The translations under genes were made by a program, and so were the position numbers. Below are positions 16,905 to 26,497 of a stretch of 64,000 nucleotides of DNA, one piece after another. Source of the stretch: Thioploca ingrica (lineage in GTDB: Bacteria; Pseudomonadota; Gammaproteobacteria; Beggiatoales; Beggiatoaceae); NCBI GenBank assembly GCA_000828835.1, contig AP014633.1, forward strand, positions 3,844,001 through 3,908,000. Reading direction: 5' to 3'. Every line of letters starts with the position of its first letter. Position 1 is the first letter of the stretch. The notes below the pieces were generated by a model. It was not told the origin of the DNA, did not search any database, and saw only the letters and a list, made by a program, of their open reading frames with translations.

Positions 16905-17729
16905 CTACGCGAGGTTTGACTTTGCTGCAGATTTAGTTTTAGCAGCCGCTTTCCTAAATTCCTTGATATATAGAATGAATAAGAACACACCTCCTAATAA
17001 ATACCTTTTCCACATTCTTCTGGGTTCTAGCCATACTCGGTGCAGCCATTCTAGCCCTATTTTTTGTAGAAAACGAGGTGCTCTTTTCTTGATACCGACA
17101 TAAAACTCAGCCGAAGCACCTAAAAGTAAAAAGAGCGGTGAATCTACCTGTTCCGCTTGCAATTTAGCATGAAGCGCTAATCCCAGTAATTCTTGTTTAG
17201 GAAAACCAACGCCAATAATCACATACTTTGGTTTGAATTTTTTAATAATATCCAAATTATCGGTACATATTTTATCAAATTCAACACTATCTAACTGAAA
17301 AAAGGGCGGCGTATAATAAACAATATTCTCGTAATTTTGTTTTAGTTTTATTCCTACCCGCTCTTCACTGACAATCACTAAAATTTTTTCTTGTTTTTGT
17401 TTAGCACGTTGCCATAACAAAGGAAATAAATCACTTCCGGTTAAGCGAGCTTGTAATGGTTTACGTACTAATAGGCTAAACAAAATAATAGACTCACCAT
17501 CGGGTAAAATAAACAAAGCTTGGCTCAATTGTTCCTTTAAAGTACGATTTTGTGGTTTATCTAATTTGATAATTTGATCGGCATTGGGGGTAACGACAAA
17601 AGGGAGTTTTTGATGATAATCTGGGTGGTTTTGATAATCCATGAGCTGCTCTAAAAAGGCTTCATGGTTACGAGCAGAAATGAAATCCAGATCAAACAGG
17701 TTAACTTTATAATACATGTTGTCTACCAC
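16905..17729 (-). CDS. WecG/TagA/CpsF-family glycosyltransferase
   Basis: A 274-residue glycosyltransferase of the GT26 family, which adds sugars such as ManNAc(A) to lipid-linked intermediates in surface polysaccharide synthesis. Motifs: FVVTPNADQIIKL (TPNxD), ALFILPDGESIILF (DGxxI), ARLTGSDLFPLLW (TG-D), and YVIIGVGFPKQELLGLAL (GxPKQE). The C-terminus (GLEWLHRVWLEPRRMWKRYL then a hydrophobic helix) is typical membrane association. It ends a minus-strand group with the epimerase (107 bases upstream) and the radical SAM gene. Acceptor and donor sugars cannot be read from sequence. Confidence 0.92.
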   Translation of the reverse strand: MVDNMYYKVNLFDLDFISARNHEAFLEQLMDYQNHPDYHQKLPFVVTPNADQIIKLDKPQNRTLKEQLSQALFILPDGESIILFSLLVRKPLQARLTGSDLFPLLWQRAKQKQEKILVIVSEERVGIKLKQNYENIVYYTPPFFQLDSVEFDKICTDNLDIIKKFKPKYVIIGVGFPKQELLGLALHAKLQAEQVDSPLFLLLGASAEFYVGIKKRAPRFLQKIGLEWLHRVWLEPRRMWKRYLLGGVFLFILYIKEFRKAAAKTKSAAKSNLA

Positions 17730-17835
17730 TCAGTTTTAATAGCTATAAATAAAAGCTTCTCTTCCTTGGTTCCATTGGCATATTGAAGCAAAAATTATGC
17801 TAATTTAACGTGTTATTATAATTATTATTACTTAA

Positions 17836-18615
17836 TCAATAAAACTGAAACGGTAAAATAATAACTTCGTCTGGTTTGGGTAAAGACTGATATTGTAATT
17901 GAGTATAGTTAATTGTACGTATTATTTTAGGAAGGAAAAACCAGTCAGGTAAAGTAGGTAGTGGAATGAGGAGAGTATTATATTGACGTGAAATATGTTT
18001 AGCCAATTTCCAAACCCGACAAGGCGTGTCACCCACGATGTTAAAAACCTTTTGCCGATTGTTATCTTGAATTAAATCAACGATTGTTTTAGCTAAGTTA
18101 TATATTAACACAGGTAGATGAAGATTGCCAGGGTAGAGCATTACTGTCACTAATTTATGTGCGATGTGTTTCTCTAATCGCTCAGCGTCACCCTTACCCT
18201 CCCAAGACCAAATCAAGCTTGGACGGATGATGATCGCTTTGGAACCCAACAAATTTTTTTCTGCTCGCCGCTTAGTGAGCGTATAACGATCCTGAAGACT
18301 GTTTACCACAACACTAATGGAACTGATGTGGATAAAAATACCCTTGGGATTAACCGAACGAAATATTAACTCGAATTGACTTGGAAACTCTGCATTAACA
18401 TATTCTTCTAACTCAGTTTGAGGATAACGACTCACGGCGGTATGAATAAGTACATCTAATTGTAAAAGTGTTAGTAATTGCTGAATATAAAGAGAATTTT
18501 TAATTTCTGGGGTACGAGGCAAAGTAATCCCAGTGACTTGATAGCCTCTTTTTTGGCTAGCCGTCGTAAGCGCTGTTCCTAAAAAACCGGTTATTCCGGT
18601 GATCCCGATTTGCAT
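17836..18615 (-). CDS. NAD(P)-dependent sugar epimerase/dehydratase (extended SDR)
   Basis: A 259-residue Rossmann protein. The nucleotide-binding motif is GITGITGFLGTALT (TGxxGFLG), and the catalytic pair is RYTLTKRRAE (YxxxK), preceded by HISSISVVV (the Ser). The protein is shorter than typical 300-350-residue epimerases, and the substrate-binding C-terminal part is reduced. It lies 19 bases after the radical SAM gene and upstream of the WecG-like transferase, so a role in making or modifying a nucleotide sugar for surface glycan is likely. The exact reaction is not determinable here. Confidence 0.85.
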   Translation of the reverse strand: MQIGITGITGFLGTALTTASQKRGYQVTGITLPRTPEIKNSLYIQQLLTLLQLDVLIHTAVSRYPQTELEEYVNAEFPSQFELIFRSVNPKGIFIHISSISVVVNSLQDRYTLTKRRAEKNLLGSKAIIIRPSLIWSWEGKGDAERLEKHIAHKLVTVMLYPGNLHLPVLIYNLAKTIVDLIQDNNRQKVFNIVGDTPCRVWKLAKHISRQYNTLLIPLPTLPDWFFLPKIIRTINYTQLQYQSLPKPDEVIILPFQFY

Positions 18616-18634
18616 AACACGGGTGAATTAAGTA

Positions 18635-19993
18635 TTAATTGGCACTTTTGCGGTGAAAAAACTTTTTAGCAAACTTGGATAATATCCATGAAGGTCGAGT
18701 GTAATAACGTGAATAAGCTGAATTAAGTACTTGACGCATTTGCAAAGGGGAAAGGTTATCGTGTTGAAAAATCAGGTGCCACTGAGTGAAATTTTCATAT
18801 TGCGTAGTCAGTAACTTATCTTGATATTGAGTAAAAATAGGTGTCTGCGGATACGGAGTAAACACACTGAATTGAGCACCATAGCTATTGATTTTTAAGG
18901 CATAGTCAATCGTTTTTTTACAATCGGCTACGGTTTCTCCAGGTAACCCAAACATATAAAAACAGGTAACCGCTATACCTTGTTTTTCCAACAAGCGAAT
19001 TTTTTGAAGTTGTTCCTCACTTTTGAGTGAATAACGTTTAACTCCATCGAGTAAATGAGTATCCGGTGATTCAATGCCTACTTTTATCATCACTAAACCC
19101 GCTTGTTTCAACAATTCAACTAATTCAGCATCCATGTTTTTTAGATGAGTTTCTATAATAAATTTGAATTTTCTGCCACTCGCCAGAATTTCCTCACATA
19201 AGTTAACAGTTTGCCGCCGATTGACGGAAAAAACGGGATCGCGAAACATAAATAATGAAACGCCCAAAGTATCCTGCCAATGAATCATTTCAGCTACAAT
19301 ATTTTGAGCCGTTCGGGCTCTTAATTTGCGTCCCTGTTGTAATGGATAAGTACAATAATGGTAGCACGAATAAGGACAACCGCGGGTTGCTAAAATTGGT
19401 AAAAAGACCTCACCCAAACCGAGTAATTTGTATTGTGGTCTAGAATTTTTAAAAATAACATCCCATGCGGGAAATTCCAGTTGATCGAGATTGGATTCGG
19501 TTTCAACAGTCAAAATCCCTTGAGCGAATTTTAACTTTTCCAAGTCAGGGTTCTGTTTGAAAAAAAACTCCGGCTCGCCGCTGATAACAAAAGCACCCGC
19601 TTCCAGGTAAGGGTTAGGAAGAACAGTGGCTACTGAACCCATGACACCGACTGGAATATGGTTTTGCTTGAGTAGTTGAATCAGACTAATTTCAGTTTCA
19701 TGACAAACAATCGAAGTAGTTACCAAACAGAGATCAACTGATTTAAGTGAAGATACTTTGAATTGATTCAGATTACCTCGGATGAATTCAACTGTATGAC
19801 CTTGATTTTTAAGGACAGCCGTGGTATAGACGCTATATAAAGGAGGCCAATCCACGCTTTTGGCTTTTACTTTTTTAAGCAATCGAGCAACCAGCCCATC
19901 ACCGTAATCATTGACTGTTCCAAAACCGCCATTCGTGTCTTTTGAAATCCGTGCTTTTCTCTCAGAATAAATATCAATTATAGCGATAATCAT
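18635..19993 (-). CDS. B12-binding-type radical SAM protein with CX3CX3C cluster motif
   Basis: A 452-residue protein of the cobalamin-binding radical SAM class (BchE/HpnJ-like). Residues ~50-165 are the Rossmann-like B12 domain region (YTTAVLKNQGHTVEFIRG, VGVMGSVATVLPNPYL, FVISGEPE), though no DxHxxG motif is evident. The radical SAM domain follows: LATRGCPYSCYHYCTYPLQQ, with cysteines at 206, 210 and 214, giving CX3CX3C instead of the usual CX3CX2C. Later motifs FMFRDPVFSVNRR, MIKVGIESPD and FYMFGLPGET are standard. It opens the unit with the epimerase and WecG genes, suggesting modification of a sugar or lipid carrier. Substrate unknown. Confidence 0.85.
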   Translation of the reverse strand: MIIAIIDIYSERKARISKDTNGGFGTVNDYGDGLVARLLKKVKAKSVDWPPLYSVYTTAVLKNQGHTVEFIRGNLNQFKVSSLKSVDLCLVTTSIVCHETEISLIQLLKQNHIPVGVMGSVATVLPNPYLEAGAFVISGEPEFFFKQNPDLEKLKFAQGILTVETESNLDQLEFPAWDVIFKNSRPQYKLLGLGEVFLPILATRGCPYSCYHYCTYPLQQGRKLRARTAQNIVAEMIHWQDTLGVSLFMFRDPVFSVNRRQTVNLCEEILASGRKFKFIIETHLKNMDAELVELLKQAGLVMIKVGIESPDTHLLDGVKRYSLKSEEQLQKIRLLEKQGIAVTCFYMFGLPGETVADCKKTIDYALKINSYGAQFSVFTPYPQTPIFTQYQDKLLTTQYENFTQWHLIFQHDNLSPLQMRQVLNSAYSRYYTRPSWILSKFAKKFFHRKSAN

Positions 19994-21417: not shown

Positions 21418-22914
21418 ATGTTAAATATTGTTCTCGATAATGAAATTGTTTTAGGATTATTATCAAAATCTTCCAATGATACCCAACATTGTTTTGTGCG
21501 CTTGCAGAAATCACCGATTCGTTTTTGGTTACCTTGCTGTTTATTATCCTTCTTAGAAACACAACTTCGTTCTGCTAACTATCATCCTTTAACCCATTTA
21601 CTTCATAATCAAGAGGTAGAATTACTTTCTTCACTCGCTGCACATTGGCATGAGATCCCCGCTAATTGTACTAATAAAACCCAAGCGCTAATGAGTTTAG
21701 ATGCGGCGATTTTACCCGGTGCCACGATTATTTGGACAGCGGATCCGAATTTTGTTTCCATTCATCCCGATATTGAATGGGGCGATCATGAGTTTGTGTA
21801 TAGCATGTTAGCACAATATGAAGATGAACCGCTCTTAGTGGATTTAGTGAGTCAACAACTGCAGTTACGTCCCAGCCTTGAGAAACATATTTTTAATGTA
21901 TTTAAACATGGACAATATTTAGCCGGTAAAGAAGTCAAACAACTGGAACAGGAGTTATCTGCTTATGTCGGCGCGTCACATTGTGTTACCACTGCCAATA
22001 GCACCGATGCTTTATTAATCGCTTTAATGGCGATTGAAGTTCAAGCGGGAAATGAAGTTATCATCTCACCCTTTAATACTATGGCAACTGCTGAGATGGT
22101 AGCATTGCTCGGTGCTAAACCCGTATTTGTCGATATCGATCCCGATACCTATAATTTAAATCCCCAACAGTTAGAAGCGGTTATTAACCACAAAACCAAA
22201 GCAATCATCGCCAGTAATCTCTATGGACAATGTGCTGATTTCAACTCGATTAATGACATTGCCAAACAACATGGATTGGTCGTGATAGAAGATGCGACTC
22301 AAAGCTTTGGCGCAACTTATCATGGTCTCAAATCCGGTCAGTTAGCAACCATCAGTTATACCAGTTTTGCTCCTTTTCAAACCTTGGGTACCTACGGTGA
22401 AGGTGGAGCTTGTTTCACTAACGACGATCCGTTAGCGGCCAGAATTCAACAATTACAACAACACCAAGAAAATAATACCCTCATTGGCATCAATAGCCAT
22501 CTCAATACCTTGCAAGCCAGTTTATTACTAGCAAAACTAGCGGTTTTTCCAACTGAACTGGAAAATAGATTAAAAATTGCTCAAACTTATAATCAGTTAT
22601 TAGCAGAAGTGAGTTCAGTTAAAATTCCCCAAATTGCCTCTTATAATACCAGTGTTTATACTCACTATACGATTGCCGTAACTAATCGCAAGCGGCTGCA
22701 ACAAAAACTGCAACAACGTGATAATATTCCATCGGCGATGTATTATTCAACACCATTGCATCTACAACCGGTTTTTGCTTATCTCCGATATCAACTCGGT
22801 TTTTTTCCGGTAACTGAACAAGCGAGTCAACAAGTCCTTAATTTACCTATGCACCCCTATTTACTGGAGGAAATGCAAACCCAAATTGTGACACTTATCA
22901 AAAGTGGTTGGTAA
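21418..22914 (+). CDS. PIN-like domain fused to a DegT/DnrJ/EryC1-type aminotransferase lacking the PLP lysine
   Basis: The ATG at 21418 gives 498 residues and starts directly with a PIN-type strand; a TTG at 21349 is possible. Residues 1-125 look like a PIN nuclease fold with its four acids: Asp7 (MLNIVLDNEI), Glu47 (SFLETQL), Asp95 (MSLDAAI) and Asp109 (WTADPNF). Residues ~150-498 are a DegT/StrS sugar aminotransferase: GQYLAGKEVKQLEQELSAYV, TTANSTDALLIALMA, VIISPFNTMATAEMV, FVDIDPDTYNLNP, VVIEDATQSFGATYHG. Where the family has SF(F/Y)PxKxLG, this protein reads SFAPFQTLGTYGEGGA, with Gln321 (codon CAA) in place of the PLP-binding lysine. It therefore probably cannot transaminate normally. 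It is alone on its strand. Confidence 0.8.
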   Translation: MLNIVLDNEIVLGLLSKSSNDTQHCFVRLQKSPIRFWLPCCLLSFLETQLRSANYHPLTHLLHNQEVELLSSLAAHWHEIPANCTNKTQALMSLDAAILPGATIIWTADPNFVSIHPDIEWGDHEFVYSMLAQYEDEPLLVDLVSQQLQLRPSLEKHIFNVFKHGQYLAGKEVKQLEQELSAYVGASHCVTTANSTDALLIALMAIEVQAGNEVIISPFNTMATAEMVALLGAKPVFVDIDPDTYNLNPQQLEAVINHKTKAIIASNLYGQCADFNSINDIAKQHGLVVIEDATQSFGATYHGLKSGQLATISYTSFAPFQTLGTYGEGGACFTNDDPLAARIQQLQQHQENNTLIGINSHLNTLQASLLLAKLAVFPTELENRLKIAQTYNQLLAEVSSVKIPQIASYNTSVYTHYTIAVTNRKRLQQKLQQRDNIPSAMYYSTPLHLQPVFAYLRYQLGFFPVTEQASQQVLNLPMHPYLLEEMQTQIVTLIKSGW

Positions 22915-23553: not shown

Positions 23554-24360
23554 ATGAGTCAGGTATGGCGGATTGAACCGCGTTATTATCAGATGGCGAC
23601 CTTAACTGGTCTGTTGTTTTATGGCATTAGCGAACTGGATTTTCCAGTCACGTGGAAAAGCGCTGGACTGATTATTTCGACGGCATTACTCAGCCAGTAT
23701 GTCGCCACTCGATTATTCAAATTGCCCGTATTTGACCCACGCAGTGCCTTGATTGCTTCGCTGTCGCTGTGTATTTTAATGCGTGCTGATTCTCAATGGC
23801 TGTTGATTGTCGGTGCAATGATCACCATTTTCAGCAAATTTATTTTGCGCTGGCAGGGCAAACATATTTTTAATCCGACTAATTTAGGTCTGACCAGTAT
23901 GATGTATTTGACGGGTGGACAGGTGTGGGTATCGCCGGGGCAATGGGGTAATTTAGCCTTTTTTAGTTTTCTGATCGCTTGCCTAGGTATGGTGGTGGTT
24001 TACCGCGCCCTGCGCAATGATGTTACCTTTGCTTTTCTGGGATTTTATATTAGTATTTTATTAGGACGCGCTGTGTGGCTGGGTGATTCCTGGGCGATTC
24101 CATTGCATCAGTTACAAAATGGTGCGTTGTTACTCTTTGCCTTTTTCATGATTTCCGATCCCAAAACGACGCCCGATTCCCGCGTTGGACGCATCCTGTT
24201 TGCGCTATGTGTGGCACTGGGTGCGATATTGGTACAATTTGTGTTTTATCGTACCAACGGTTTGTTGTGGTCGCTGGTGTGTTGTTCATTGTTGGTGCCG
24301 TTGCTGGATTGGTGGTTACCCGGCAAACGTTACCAATGGTCAAATCCCACGATTCAATAA
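23554..24360 (+). CDS. RnfD/NqrB-like membrane protein
   Basis: A 268-residue integral membrane protein with about eight hydrophobic segments, resembling the NQR2/RnfD/RnfE family. Characteristic stretches: KHIFNPTNLGLTSMMYLTGG, and FMISDPKTTPDSRVGRILFA, the SDPKTTP motif being typical of RnfD. The Ser/Thr-Gly-Ala-Thr flavinylation site of true RnfD/NqrB is not evident, so covalent FMN is doubtful. None of rnfABCGE is nearby; instead it is followed at 21 bases by a DUF2330 gene. The pair probably forms a small unit of unknown membrane function, possibly electron transfer. Confidence 0.8.
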   Translation: MSQVWRIEPRYYQMATLTGLLFYGISELDFPVTWKSAGLIISTALLSQYVATRLFKLPVFDPRSALIASLSLCILMRADSQWLLIVGAMITIFSKFILRWQGKHIFNPTNLGLTSMMYLTGGQVWVSPGQWGNLAFFSFLIACLGMVVVYRALRNDVTFAFLGFYISILLGRAVWLGDSWAIPLHQLQNGALLLFAFFMISDPKTTPDSRVGRILFALCVALGAILVQFVFYRTNGLLWSLVCCSLLVPLLDWWLPGKRYQWSNPTIQ

Positions 24361-24381
24361 CATAAAATGGAGGATTTTAGG

Positions 24382-25683
24382 ATGCTAAAAAAATGGTGTG
24401 TAGCGGCAAGCTTACTGGTTGTGAGTGGGCAAGCCTTGAGTTTTTGTGGTTTTTATGTCGCCCAAGCGGACACTAAACTGTTTAATCAAGCCTCGCAAGT
24501 CGTGCTAGTACGCGATGGCGATAAAACCGTGCTAACGATGGCGAACGATTTTAAAGGTGACTTAAAAGAATTTGCCATCGTTATTCCGGTGCCTACATTT
24601 ATTGAAGAAGGGCAAATTCACATTGGCGACAAAGCCCATATTGACCATTTGGATGCTTACAGCGCGCCACGTTTAGTCGAGTATTTCGATGGCAATCCCT
24701 GTCCGCCACCAGCAACTGTTGGCGAAGTTGCTATGTCTCTACCCGCAGCACCATTTGATAGTGATATGGCTAGAGATGGCGTCAAAATCGAAGCACAATA
24801 CACCATTGGCGAATACGATATTTTGATTTTATCTGCCGAACAAAGCGGTGGTTTAGTCAGATGGCTGAAAAAAAATGGTTACCGGATTCCTAAAGGCGCT
24901 AAATCGGTACTCGGTAGCTATATCAAACAAAAGATGCGCTTCTTTGTCGCCAAAGTGAATTTAACTGAACAAGCCAAATTGGGATACAACTATCTGCGTC
25001 CGCTACAAGTCGCTTACGAATCGCCCAAATTTATGTTGCCAATTCGACTGGGTACGGTCAACGCTGATGGTGCGCAAGAATTATTTATTTATACCCTAAC
25101 TCGCCAAGGACGGGTCGAAACGACCAATTATCGCACCGTAAAACTCCCTACCGATATGGATTTACCCGTGTATATCAAAGACGATTTTGCCAATTTTTAC
25201 CGTGCCCTGTTTGATTATCAAGTCGAGAAAGAGGATATGCGCGCCGTATTCTTGGAATATGCTTGGAATATGAACCAGGGGTGCGATCCTTGTGCTGCCA
25301 GCCCACCCTCTGAGCAGGAATTGCGCGAATTGGGGGTATTCTGGAATCAACCGGAGTCCGGTTCGCCGGTGGATACCTTTATTACCCGCTTACATCTGCG
25401 CTACAACGCCAAAAATTTCCCGGAAGACCTTATTTTTCAAGAAACGAGTGATCACAACAATTTTCAGGGACGCTACGTGTTACGTCATCCTTGGCAAGGC
25501 ACAGCAGATTGTCCCCAAGCTCAAGAATATCGGCGTAATTTAACAACGCGCTGGGAAAAAGAAGCGCAAGAATTAGCCAATTTAACTGGCTGGAATATCC
25601 AAAACATTCGTCGAAAAATGAATCTTCCGGGATTGGGAAATACTGGTTATCAAGAGAGATGGTGGCAAAAACTATGGAAATGA
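24382..25683 (+). CDS. Secreted DUF2330 protein
   Basis: A 433-residue exported protein. The ATG at 24382 follows GGAGG by 8 bases and begins the signal peptide MLKKWCVAASLLVVSGQALS, so it is preferred to the in-frame ATG at 24367. The DUF2330 hallmark CGFYVAQADTKLFNQASQVV follows at once, then TVLTMANDFKGDLKEFAIVIPVP, DHLDAYSAPRLVEYFD, and near residue 305 the cysteine pair NQGCDPCAASPP. The C-terminus ends in a Trp/Arg-rich helix. Families with this layout sit in the periplasm. Its coupling to the RnfD-like gene hints at a shared membrane-associated process, which remains inference. Confidence 0.85.
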   Translation: MLKKWCVAASLLVVSGQALSFCGFYVAQADTKLFNQASQVVLVRDGDKTVLTMANDFKGDLKEFAIVIPVPTFIEEGQIHIGDKAHIDHLDAYSAPRLVEYFDGNPCPPPATVGEVAMSLPAAPFDSDMARDGVKIEAQYTIGEYDILILSAEQSGGLVRWLKKNGYRIPKGAKSVLGSYIKQKMRFFVAKVNLTEQAKLGYNYLRPLQVAYESPKFMLPIRLGTVNADGAQELFIYTLTRQGRVETTNYRTVKLPTDMDLPVYIKDDFANFYRALFDYQVEKEDMRAVFLEYAWNMNQGCDPCAASPPSEQELRELGVFWNQPESGSPVDTFITRLHLRYNAKNFPEDLIFQETSDHNNFQGRYVLRHPWQGTADCPQAQEYRRNLTTRWEKEAQELANLTGWNIQNIRRKMNLPGLGNTGYQERWWQKLWK

Positions 25684-26092: not shown

Positions 26093-26497
26093 TTAGTTTA
26101 ACGCTTGTAAAAAATCCTGATAATGACGGTAATAATCAGTTTCGTCATAATAAGTTGAGGCTAAAACCATACAGACTGATCCCGAGGAGAAATTATCTAT
26201 TTCGCGCCAGATCATCGGACAGATGTACAAACCATAATAAGAACGATTCAGATGGTATTTCTGTTTTTCCTTACCATCATCTAACAGAATATCAAAACTA
26301 CCTGACATGGCGATAAGAAATTGTTGTAATTCTTGATGAGCATGACCGGCTCGTTCGGCACCGCCAGGAACGTCATAAAGATAATAGACTCTTTTGATTT
26401 CAAAAGGAATATGACGATTCGCTTCAATAAAAGTGAGATTGCCGCGACAGTCTTGAATTTTAGGGAGATCAATCAGTTTACAATCGTGGATGCCCAT
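26093..26497 (-). CDS. FdtA/QdtA-type TDP-4-oxo-6-deoxyglucose 3,4-ketoisomerase-like cupin
   Basis: A 134-residue single-domain cupin of the WxcM/FdtA family, which isomerises dTDP-4-keto-6-deoxyglucose to the 3-keto sugar before a DegT-type aminotransferase acts. Motifs: DCRGNLTFIEANRHIPFEIKR, YYLYDVPGGAERAGHAHQELQQFL (the HAH metal/substrate motif), GSFDILLDDG and ASTYYDETDYYRHYQDFL. It lies downstream of a broken PP-loop gene and the HAD phosphatase on the same strand. The nearest aminotransferase of the matching class (21418) has lost its PLP lysine, so whether an amino sugar is made locally is open. Confidence 0.85.
   Translation of the reverse strand: MGIHDCKLIDLPKIQDCRGNLTFIEANRHIPFEIKRVYYLYDVPGGAERAGHAHQELQQFLIAMSGSFDILLDDGKEKQKYHLNRSYYGLYICPMIWREIDNFSSGSVCMVLASTYYDETDYYRHYQDFLQALN

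Follow-up and report, generated by a model that had tools for sequence, protein, structure and literature searches.

The fusion gene

The DNA analysed here (the window) is a stretch of 64,000 nucleotides from the genome of Thioploca ingrica, which is a single contig of 4,810,005 bases. The gene under study lies on its plus strand and encodes a protein of two parts.

21418..22914, plus strand: PIN::DegT (WbpE-type) fusion gene, 498 aa, from ATG (21418) to TAA
21418..21822, plus strand: predicted PIN domain of VapC-like fold, residues 1-135 (AlphaFold, Foldseek and VIA-align; PIN-only relatives are 134 aa long)
21835..22902, plus strand: WbpE-type aminotransferase domain, residues 140-495 (Pfam PF01041, E 2.3e-100)

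Fourteen further genomes of the family have full-length homologues, at 52-90% identity; one is that of Thioploca sp. SL_4_0 (taken to be G001), placed in the window's own genus. The family alignment was built from the 15 full-length fusion proteins. The homologues start at the same residue as the window protein or one later, and all 15 fusion frames found in the homologue search are open, with no stop. The PIN-type domain is present as one intact copy per genome. A fusion of a PIN domain to a DegT-type aminotransferase had been proposed in the first-pass annotation, and this architecture was borne out, the PIN part by its predicted fold and the aminotransferase part by both Pfam and a fold match.

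The N-terminal half has a predicted PIN fold

The N-terminal half was assigned by fold prediction because sequence searches gave nothing usable. Pfam called no family in the window's N-terminus, and no PIN model reached its cut-off there or in 16 relatives; the matches below cut-off among these 17 sequences were PF01850 once (E 0.07) and PF18476 once (E 0.17). A profile search of PDB sequences with the N-terminus returned a chance match only (7uon, E 0.92). The first whole-protein model of the fusion was poor over residues 71-141, and the PIN domain was therefore predicted separately. The AlphaFold model of this half alone, made with 21 relatives, had a mean pLDDT of 89.6. Its best VIA-align match was Caulobacter VapC1 (5k8j; Z 11.9 over 114 residues, 2.4 Å). 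Among the first 17 VIA-align rows (Z 10.2-11.9), 13 are titled VapC, VapBC, PIN or toxin-antitoxin, and the other four rows are archaeal, with titles that read hypothetical or gene product. Foldseek placed a toxin-antitoxin complex first (7vwo, E 0.0089, probability 1.00), with toxin-antitoxin or VapC chains at ranks 1 and 3-5, and gave no match to the model at E <= 0.001. By its predicted structure, the N-terminal half of the window protein is a PIN fold, as had been proposed from the sequence.

The residues of interest in this half were counted in 21 PIN sequences:

21436..21438, plus strand: Asp7 (D in 19 of 21; H once, N once)
21556..21558, plus strand: Glu47 (E in 18, D in 1, K in 1, T in 1 of 21)
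21700..21702, plus strand: Asp95 in SLDA (D in 21 of 21)
21742..21744, plus strand: Asp109, listed earlier as a fourth acid (D in only 7 of 21; not conserved)
21781..21792, plus strand: Gly-Asp-His-Glu, residues 122-125 (G, D and H each in 21 of 21; E in 20 of 21)

Three of the four acids named in the first-pass annotation are thus conserved (Asp7, Glu47 and Asp95), and the fourth, Asp109, is not; Gly122-Asp123-His124, which that list lacked, is a steadier C-terminal feature. Among the positions counted, N3, N20, D21, R28, S93, D95, W106, G122, D123 and H124 are invariant. The D-E-D acidic triad is intact in the window (D7, E47, D95) and kept in 17 of 21 sequences, one E47D being counted as kept. 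It is broken in Parabeggiatoa 4572_84 (D7H), BB3 (E47K), Thiomargarita FS08_3_2_43 (E47T) and the PIN-only HyVt-590 (D7N), and RNase activity may therefore not be the common function of the family. Parab1_B3G6 (L071), which is cut at a contig start, was excluded from the 21 PIN rows and from the 17-row tree described below.

The aminotransferase half and its lysine position

The C-terminal half belongs to the DegT/DnrJ/EryC1/StrS family, and to the WbpE type within it, by both sequence and fold. The closest solved structures are those of Pcryo_0616 and WbpE (3nu7, E 5.2e-99; Foldseek match to 3nu8, E 3.3e-41, TM(target) 0.93).

22291..22293, plus strand: Asp292 of VVIEDATQSFGA (from the WbpE alignment; D in 15 of 18 fusion aminotransferases)
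22378..22380, plus strand: Gln321 (CAA), at the Schiff-base lysine position (alignment and codon read)

The alignment agrees with the original reading of both residues: CAA encodes a glutamine where the family has its invariant lysine, and Asp292, which we take to be the equivalent of the PLP ring-binding aspartate, is kept. Outside the fusion clade, lysine occupies this position in 16 of 16 aligned relatives, comprising nine WbpE-type proteins (four with another N-terminal PIN) and seven more distant aminotransferases. L003, L004, L005, L006 and L034 are not among these 16; L003, L004, L005 and L034 have the lysine too. The 18 fusion aminotransferases of the Beggiatoa/Thioploca group carry Gln (8), Lys (7), Arg (2) or His (1) here, such that 11 of 18 lack the lysine. 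Both genomes of the Thioploca genus have Gln, as does each of the four Parabeggiatoa sequences found, and it occurs again in G010 and G028, which belong to another genus. The lysine is therefore not replaced throughout the fusion homologues, and the glutamine is not confined to the window. An isolated mutation or sequencing error at codon 321 of a normal enzyme, which the seven Lys-bearing fusions might have suggested, is refuted by the recurrence of Gln in these relatives.

Besides the lysine, the PLP site presumably comprises the equivalents of WbpE G59, T60, D156, Q159, S180, N227 and R229. These positions are invariant in the 16 relatives (one row being gapped at two of them) and varied in the fusion clade. 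Over the eight PLP-site columns, the fusion sequences retain the ancestral residue in 72% of cells. The figure is 88% for the 52 other columns that are invariant in all relatives (one-sided p 0.0037), and 79% for the 144 other columns invariant in the operon group (p 0.059). Of the 60 universal columns, only T224 and V266, which are outside the presumed PLP-site list, are more eroded than that of the lysine. The window aminotransferase has lost the K, the G (to S) and the R (to H) of the site, and keeps the equivalents of Thr60, Asp156, Gln159, Ser180 and Asn227. The fusion aminotransferases with R or H at the lysine position are also without the Thr, and the Asp, Gln, Asn or Arg has been lost in one or another of them.

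ColD-type GDP-4-keto-6-deoxymannose 3-dehydratase has a DegT fold in which the lysine is replaced by His. The aminotransferase half might likewise be an enzyme with changed PLP chemistry, to which the PIN domain is a minor appendage. The five PLP-site residues retained in the window lineage and the His of one fusion member are consistent with such an enzyme. However, the replacing residue differs among members (Q, R or H), and those with R and H have lost further PLP-site residues. The window protein also differs from the ColD type in having Gln rather than His, in its nearest solved relatives being WbpE proteins and in the erosion of its PLP site elsewhere; in the comparison made, which was with the related 3-dehydrase 3bb8, the match was far below that to WbpE (E 1.2e-22 versus 5.2e-99).

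Loss of the lysine and selection on both halves

In a whole-protein tree of 17 rows, from which the lysine column was meant to be excluded, at least four changes between K and non-K are needed. Placing all non-K rows in one clade was rejected (p 0.031), and a single Q clade was not rejected by the AU test (p 0.074). An aminotransferase-only tree of 31 rows, with the lysine column included, also gave four changes, and here one non-K clade was not rejected (p 0.40). Many inner branches are weakly supported. The sequences suggest that the lysine was likely lost more than once within the fusion clade.

Between the window and Thioploca SL_4_0, dN/dS (NG86) was 0.080 for the PIN half and 0.108 for the lysine-less aminotransferase. 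Four further Gln pairs gave 0.13-0.17 for the PIN and 0.07-0.16 for the aminotransferase (NG86), with dS near or past 1, and in two Lys pairs dS was saturated. Two operon WbpE pairs gave similar values (0.093 and 0.126), which indicates that, among close relatives, the lysine-less aminotransferase is constrained about as strongly as operon WbpE. Strong purifying selection of this kind would also be expected of an enzyme with changed chemistry. The PIN was more conserved than the aminotransferase in 105 of 136 pairs, although the pairs are not independent.

Aminotransferase branches measured from the common node of the aminotransferase-only tree are longer in the fusion clade (0.55-1.33) than in the operon clade (0.30-0.70). 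Together with the missing lysine in several lineages, this could be read as a gene decaying on its way to loss, in which the lysine change was neutral. Such decay is highly improbable given that 15 of 15 frames are open and that dN/dS is 0.07-0.17 in both halves over the five Gln pairs (NG86). A pseudogene was rejected on the same grounds.

Genomic neighbourhood and the sugar pathway

The three genes on each side of the 18 fusion loci were compared (ORFs >= 70 aa; several contigs are short), and no family was shared by more than three loci; the sole family reaching 3 of 18 is a large mixed cluster. WbpB was found in 2 and WbpD in 3 of the 15 fusion genomes. The seven operon-type WbpE genomes searched (G003, G008, G017, G027, G029, G031 and G039) had WbpB in 6 of 7, G039 being the one without a match, and WbpD in 7 of 7. 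In the window's genome (G000), neither WbpB nor WbpD was found at E 1e-40 and 1e-35, respectively, cut-offs that distant analogues could escape.

Two fusion genomes, G018 and G015, have both WbpB and WbpD. G018, whose fusion has Gln, has a separate WbpE with Lys. G015, whose fusion has Lys, gave no second aminotransferase match at E 1e-60; since WbpB and WbpD are present and no second aminotransferase was found, the fused aminotransferase of G015 may still be the enzyme that serves the pathway. Among the results, this one argues most plainly against treating the fusion clade as non-catalytic throughout. In G018, a WbpB-type oxidoreductase gene split over two frames (L084:3278-4286) adjoins an intact-looking WbpD gene.

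The first-pass annotation had suggested a sensor or a new enzyme activity rather than an amino-sugar maker. That the protein is not an amino-sugar maker appears likely for the window, but may not hold for the Lys-bearing G015. The variation in the replacing residue, the further erosion of the PLP site and the lack, in most genomes, of the genes that would supply the pathway do not favour a new enzyme activity. A sensor or scaffold role may apply. The changed-chemistry enzyme draws some support from the Lys-bearing G015, which retains WbpB and WbpD, but it is unlikely: at the cut-offs used WbpB is absent from 13 and WbpD from 12 of the 15 genomes, there is no shared sugar operon, and four genomes have the PIN but no fused aminotransferase.

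Operon-type relatives and the origin of the fusion

WbpE proteins that keep the lysine and carry an N-terminal domain of their own were found at L075, L076, L077 and L084, in the same family, and at L099, in another family of the class. They have the same domain order as the window protein, but their lysine is kept. Most have an antitoxin-like ORF of about 90 aa ahead of the fused gene:

L075:8725-10490: antitoxin-like ORF, then PIN::WbpE (Lys)
L077:3-1336: antitoxin-like ORF, then PIN::WbpE (Lys)
L084:3-1258: antitoxin-like ORF, then PIN::WbpE (Lys)
L099:1501-3033 and the ORF upstream of it: antitoxin-like ORF, then PIN::WbpE (Lys)

Pfam PIN_3 was above its cut-off in L076 and L077, below it in L075 and not called in L099 and L084. 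The PIN was judged in L075 and L099 by their shared N-terminal alignment, and in L084 by the resemblance to L075 of what is left of its N-terminus. The L077 protein is cut at a contig end, as is that of L084, in which the start of the PIN is missing. L076 has no ORF of about 90 aa upstream. Against Pfam AF2212, this ORF was above cut-off in L075, below it in L084 and without a match in L077, and that of L099 is similar by eye. WbpB- or WbpD-type genes lie in the same stretch in L076 (WbpB), L077 and L084, and by eye in L099; those of L075 are elsewhere in its genome rather than in the same stretch. In these relatives, a toxin-antitoxin module has apparently been absorbed into a sugar-biosynthesis gene.

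In a profile comparison, the window PIN family and the operon-type PIN family are related (E 8e-6, probability 84). G007 also carries an unfused, stop-broken PIN of the window type (L053; 38% identity, E 2.2e-11). It starts at the end of an antitoxin-like ORF that clusters with the upstream ORF of L077; the ORF and the PIN together span L085:6293-7056, and a WbpD-type acetyltransferase gene is near. From the antitoxin-like ORF and PIN::WbpE relatives, the likeness of the PIN profiles and L053, we infer that the fusion descends from an antitoxin/PIN pair beside wbpE.

Distribution of the PIN domain

Of 42 genomes in the family, 21 have the window-type PIN: 17 with the aminotransferase and 4 without. 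In a sample of 369 genomes from the class it was present in four, each of which belongs to this family. The 18th fusion, that of Thiomargarita PC08_66 (L059), is additional to the 17 in the 42 family genomes. The flanks of the PIN-only loci (134 aa) contain no aminotransferase remnant. In an unrooted PIN tree, a group of 12 rows (support 85/89) unites the PIN-only rows with those of the window, Parabeggiatoa and others. When the broken and very long-branched L053 was used as the outgroup, a basal position of the PIN-only rows was not rejected (p 0.40); if PIN-only were the ancestral state, loss of the aminotransferase with retention of the PIN would fail as an explanation.

No AF2212-like ORF was seen by eye within 700 bp upstream of 15 fusion and 2 PIN-only loci. 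The antitoxin profile search, which covered PF01954 only, gave no match in 9 of 11 genomes, including G000; divergent members such as that of L084 also escape this profile.

These results bear on whether the fusion is a self-contained toxin-antitoxin protein, in which a live PIN RNase is held inactive by the aminotransferase-derived domain and freed by proteolysis or a ligand. The VapC fold with its mostly intact triad, the antitoxin-like ORF adjoining the gene in relatives and the negative antitoxin searches (17 loci by eye, 9 of 11 genomes by profile) are all compatible with it. It is nevertheless doubtful, as PIN-only genes persist in four genomes, the two inspected having no antitoxin-like ORF upstream, and the triad is lost in 4 of 21 sequences. 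Mobile toxin-antitoxin loci are usually patchy and multi-copy, a pattern that the single intact copy per genome does not match. Both the changed PLP enzyme and the self-restrained toxin fit less well because the replacing residue varies, the partner genes are mostly missing and the PIN stands alone in four genomes.

Proposed function

The reading preferred here, with a probability of about 0.5, is that the window protein is a VapC-derived PIN protein whose aminotransferase half has become, in the window's lineage, a non-catalytic scaffold or regulator. A VapC-type PIN would have been joined to WbpE, its likeliest source being a toxin-antitoxin pair next to wbpE. In the Beggiatoa/Thioploca group, one such fusion would have come to stand alone, mostly without the sugar pathway; no antitoxin was seen adjoining it. 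In many species of that group, including that of the window, the aminotransferase would have turned into a pseudoenzyme on losing the lysine, while its fold stayed under selection. The PIN half would be the working part, as an RNA-cutting or RNA-binding module.

The aminotransferase fold of this family is dimeric. In the window protein it may hold the PIN domains in a fixed oligomer, restrain them in place of the lost antitoxin, or both, and may still bind PLP/PMP or a sugar nucleotide as a signal. PDB entry 3nys is titled as the K185A mutant of WbpE in complex with PLP, which suggests, by its title, that a lysine-less WbpE can keep both its fold and PLP. In a more specific and rather speculative version of the preferred reading, the WbpE fold without its lysine would bind PLP/PMP or a UDP-sugar but catalyse nothing, and the binding would gate the PIN nuclease, a task that the antitoxin had before it was lost.

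Comparison with known systems

The whole aminotransferase half resembles WbpE/WlbE, the UDP-2-acetamido-2-deoxy-3-oxo-glucuronate aminotransferase (P. aeruginosa, 3nu7, 3nu8 and 3nys; Pcryo_0616, 8e75), with the same fold and 46-47% identity in structural alignment. Unlike these enzymes, the window protein lacks the lysine and has an added N-terminal PIN; the window genome and most fusion genomes have no WbpB/WbpD match, and there is no shared operon. The PIN half has its fold and D-E-D acids in common with VapC/PIN toxins (VapC1, 5k8j; VapC2, 3zvk), from which it differs in that no AF2212-like ORF was seen upstream, in being fused to an aminotransferase and in falling below the Pfam PIN cut-offs.

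PIN toxins and DegT enzymes are both already known. In the parts of the open-licence literature that were available, no published report of a PIN-DegT fusion or of a lysine-less WbpE clade was found, and the relevant passages of one paper on VapC and PIN domains name an aminotransferase only in a table of gene associations.

One bacterial group holds a natural series: an antitoxin-like ORF with PIN::WbpE by sugar genes, a stand-alone fusion with Lys, stand-alone fusions with Gln, Arg or His, and the PIN alone. The series makes it testable how a metabolic gene can take up a toxin-antitoxin module and give it another function, and why the fold of a PLP enzyme is kept once the catalytic lysine is gone. 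Under the more speculative gating version, what was once a metabolic enzyme would now sense a ligand for a toxin-type RNase or restrain it.

Other genes of the window

A possible sugar-modifying cluster lies on the minus strand at 16905-19993, where genes for a WecG-type glycosyltransferase, an RmlD/epimerase-like protein and a radical SAM protein stand in a row; the radical SAM protein is nearest to AprD4, below the NCBIfam cut-off. An FdtA/WxcM-like gene (PF05523, E 2.4e-59) is present on the minus strand at 26093-26497, with no other recognised sugar gene directly adjoining it. Two adjacent genes at 23554-25683, downstream of the window's fusion, recur in Thiomargarita PC08_66 (L059:7642-9810), where they lie on the upstream side of the fusion.
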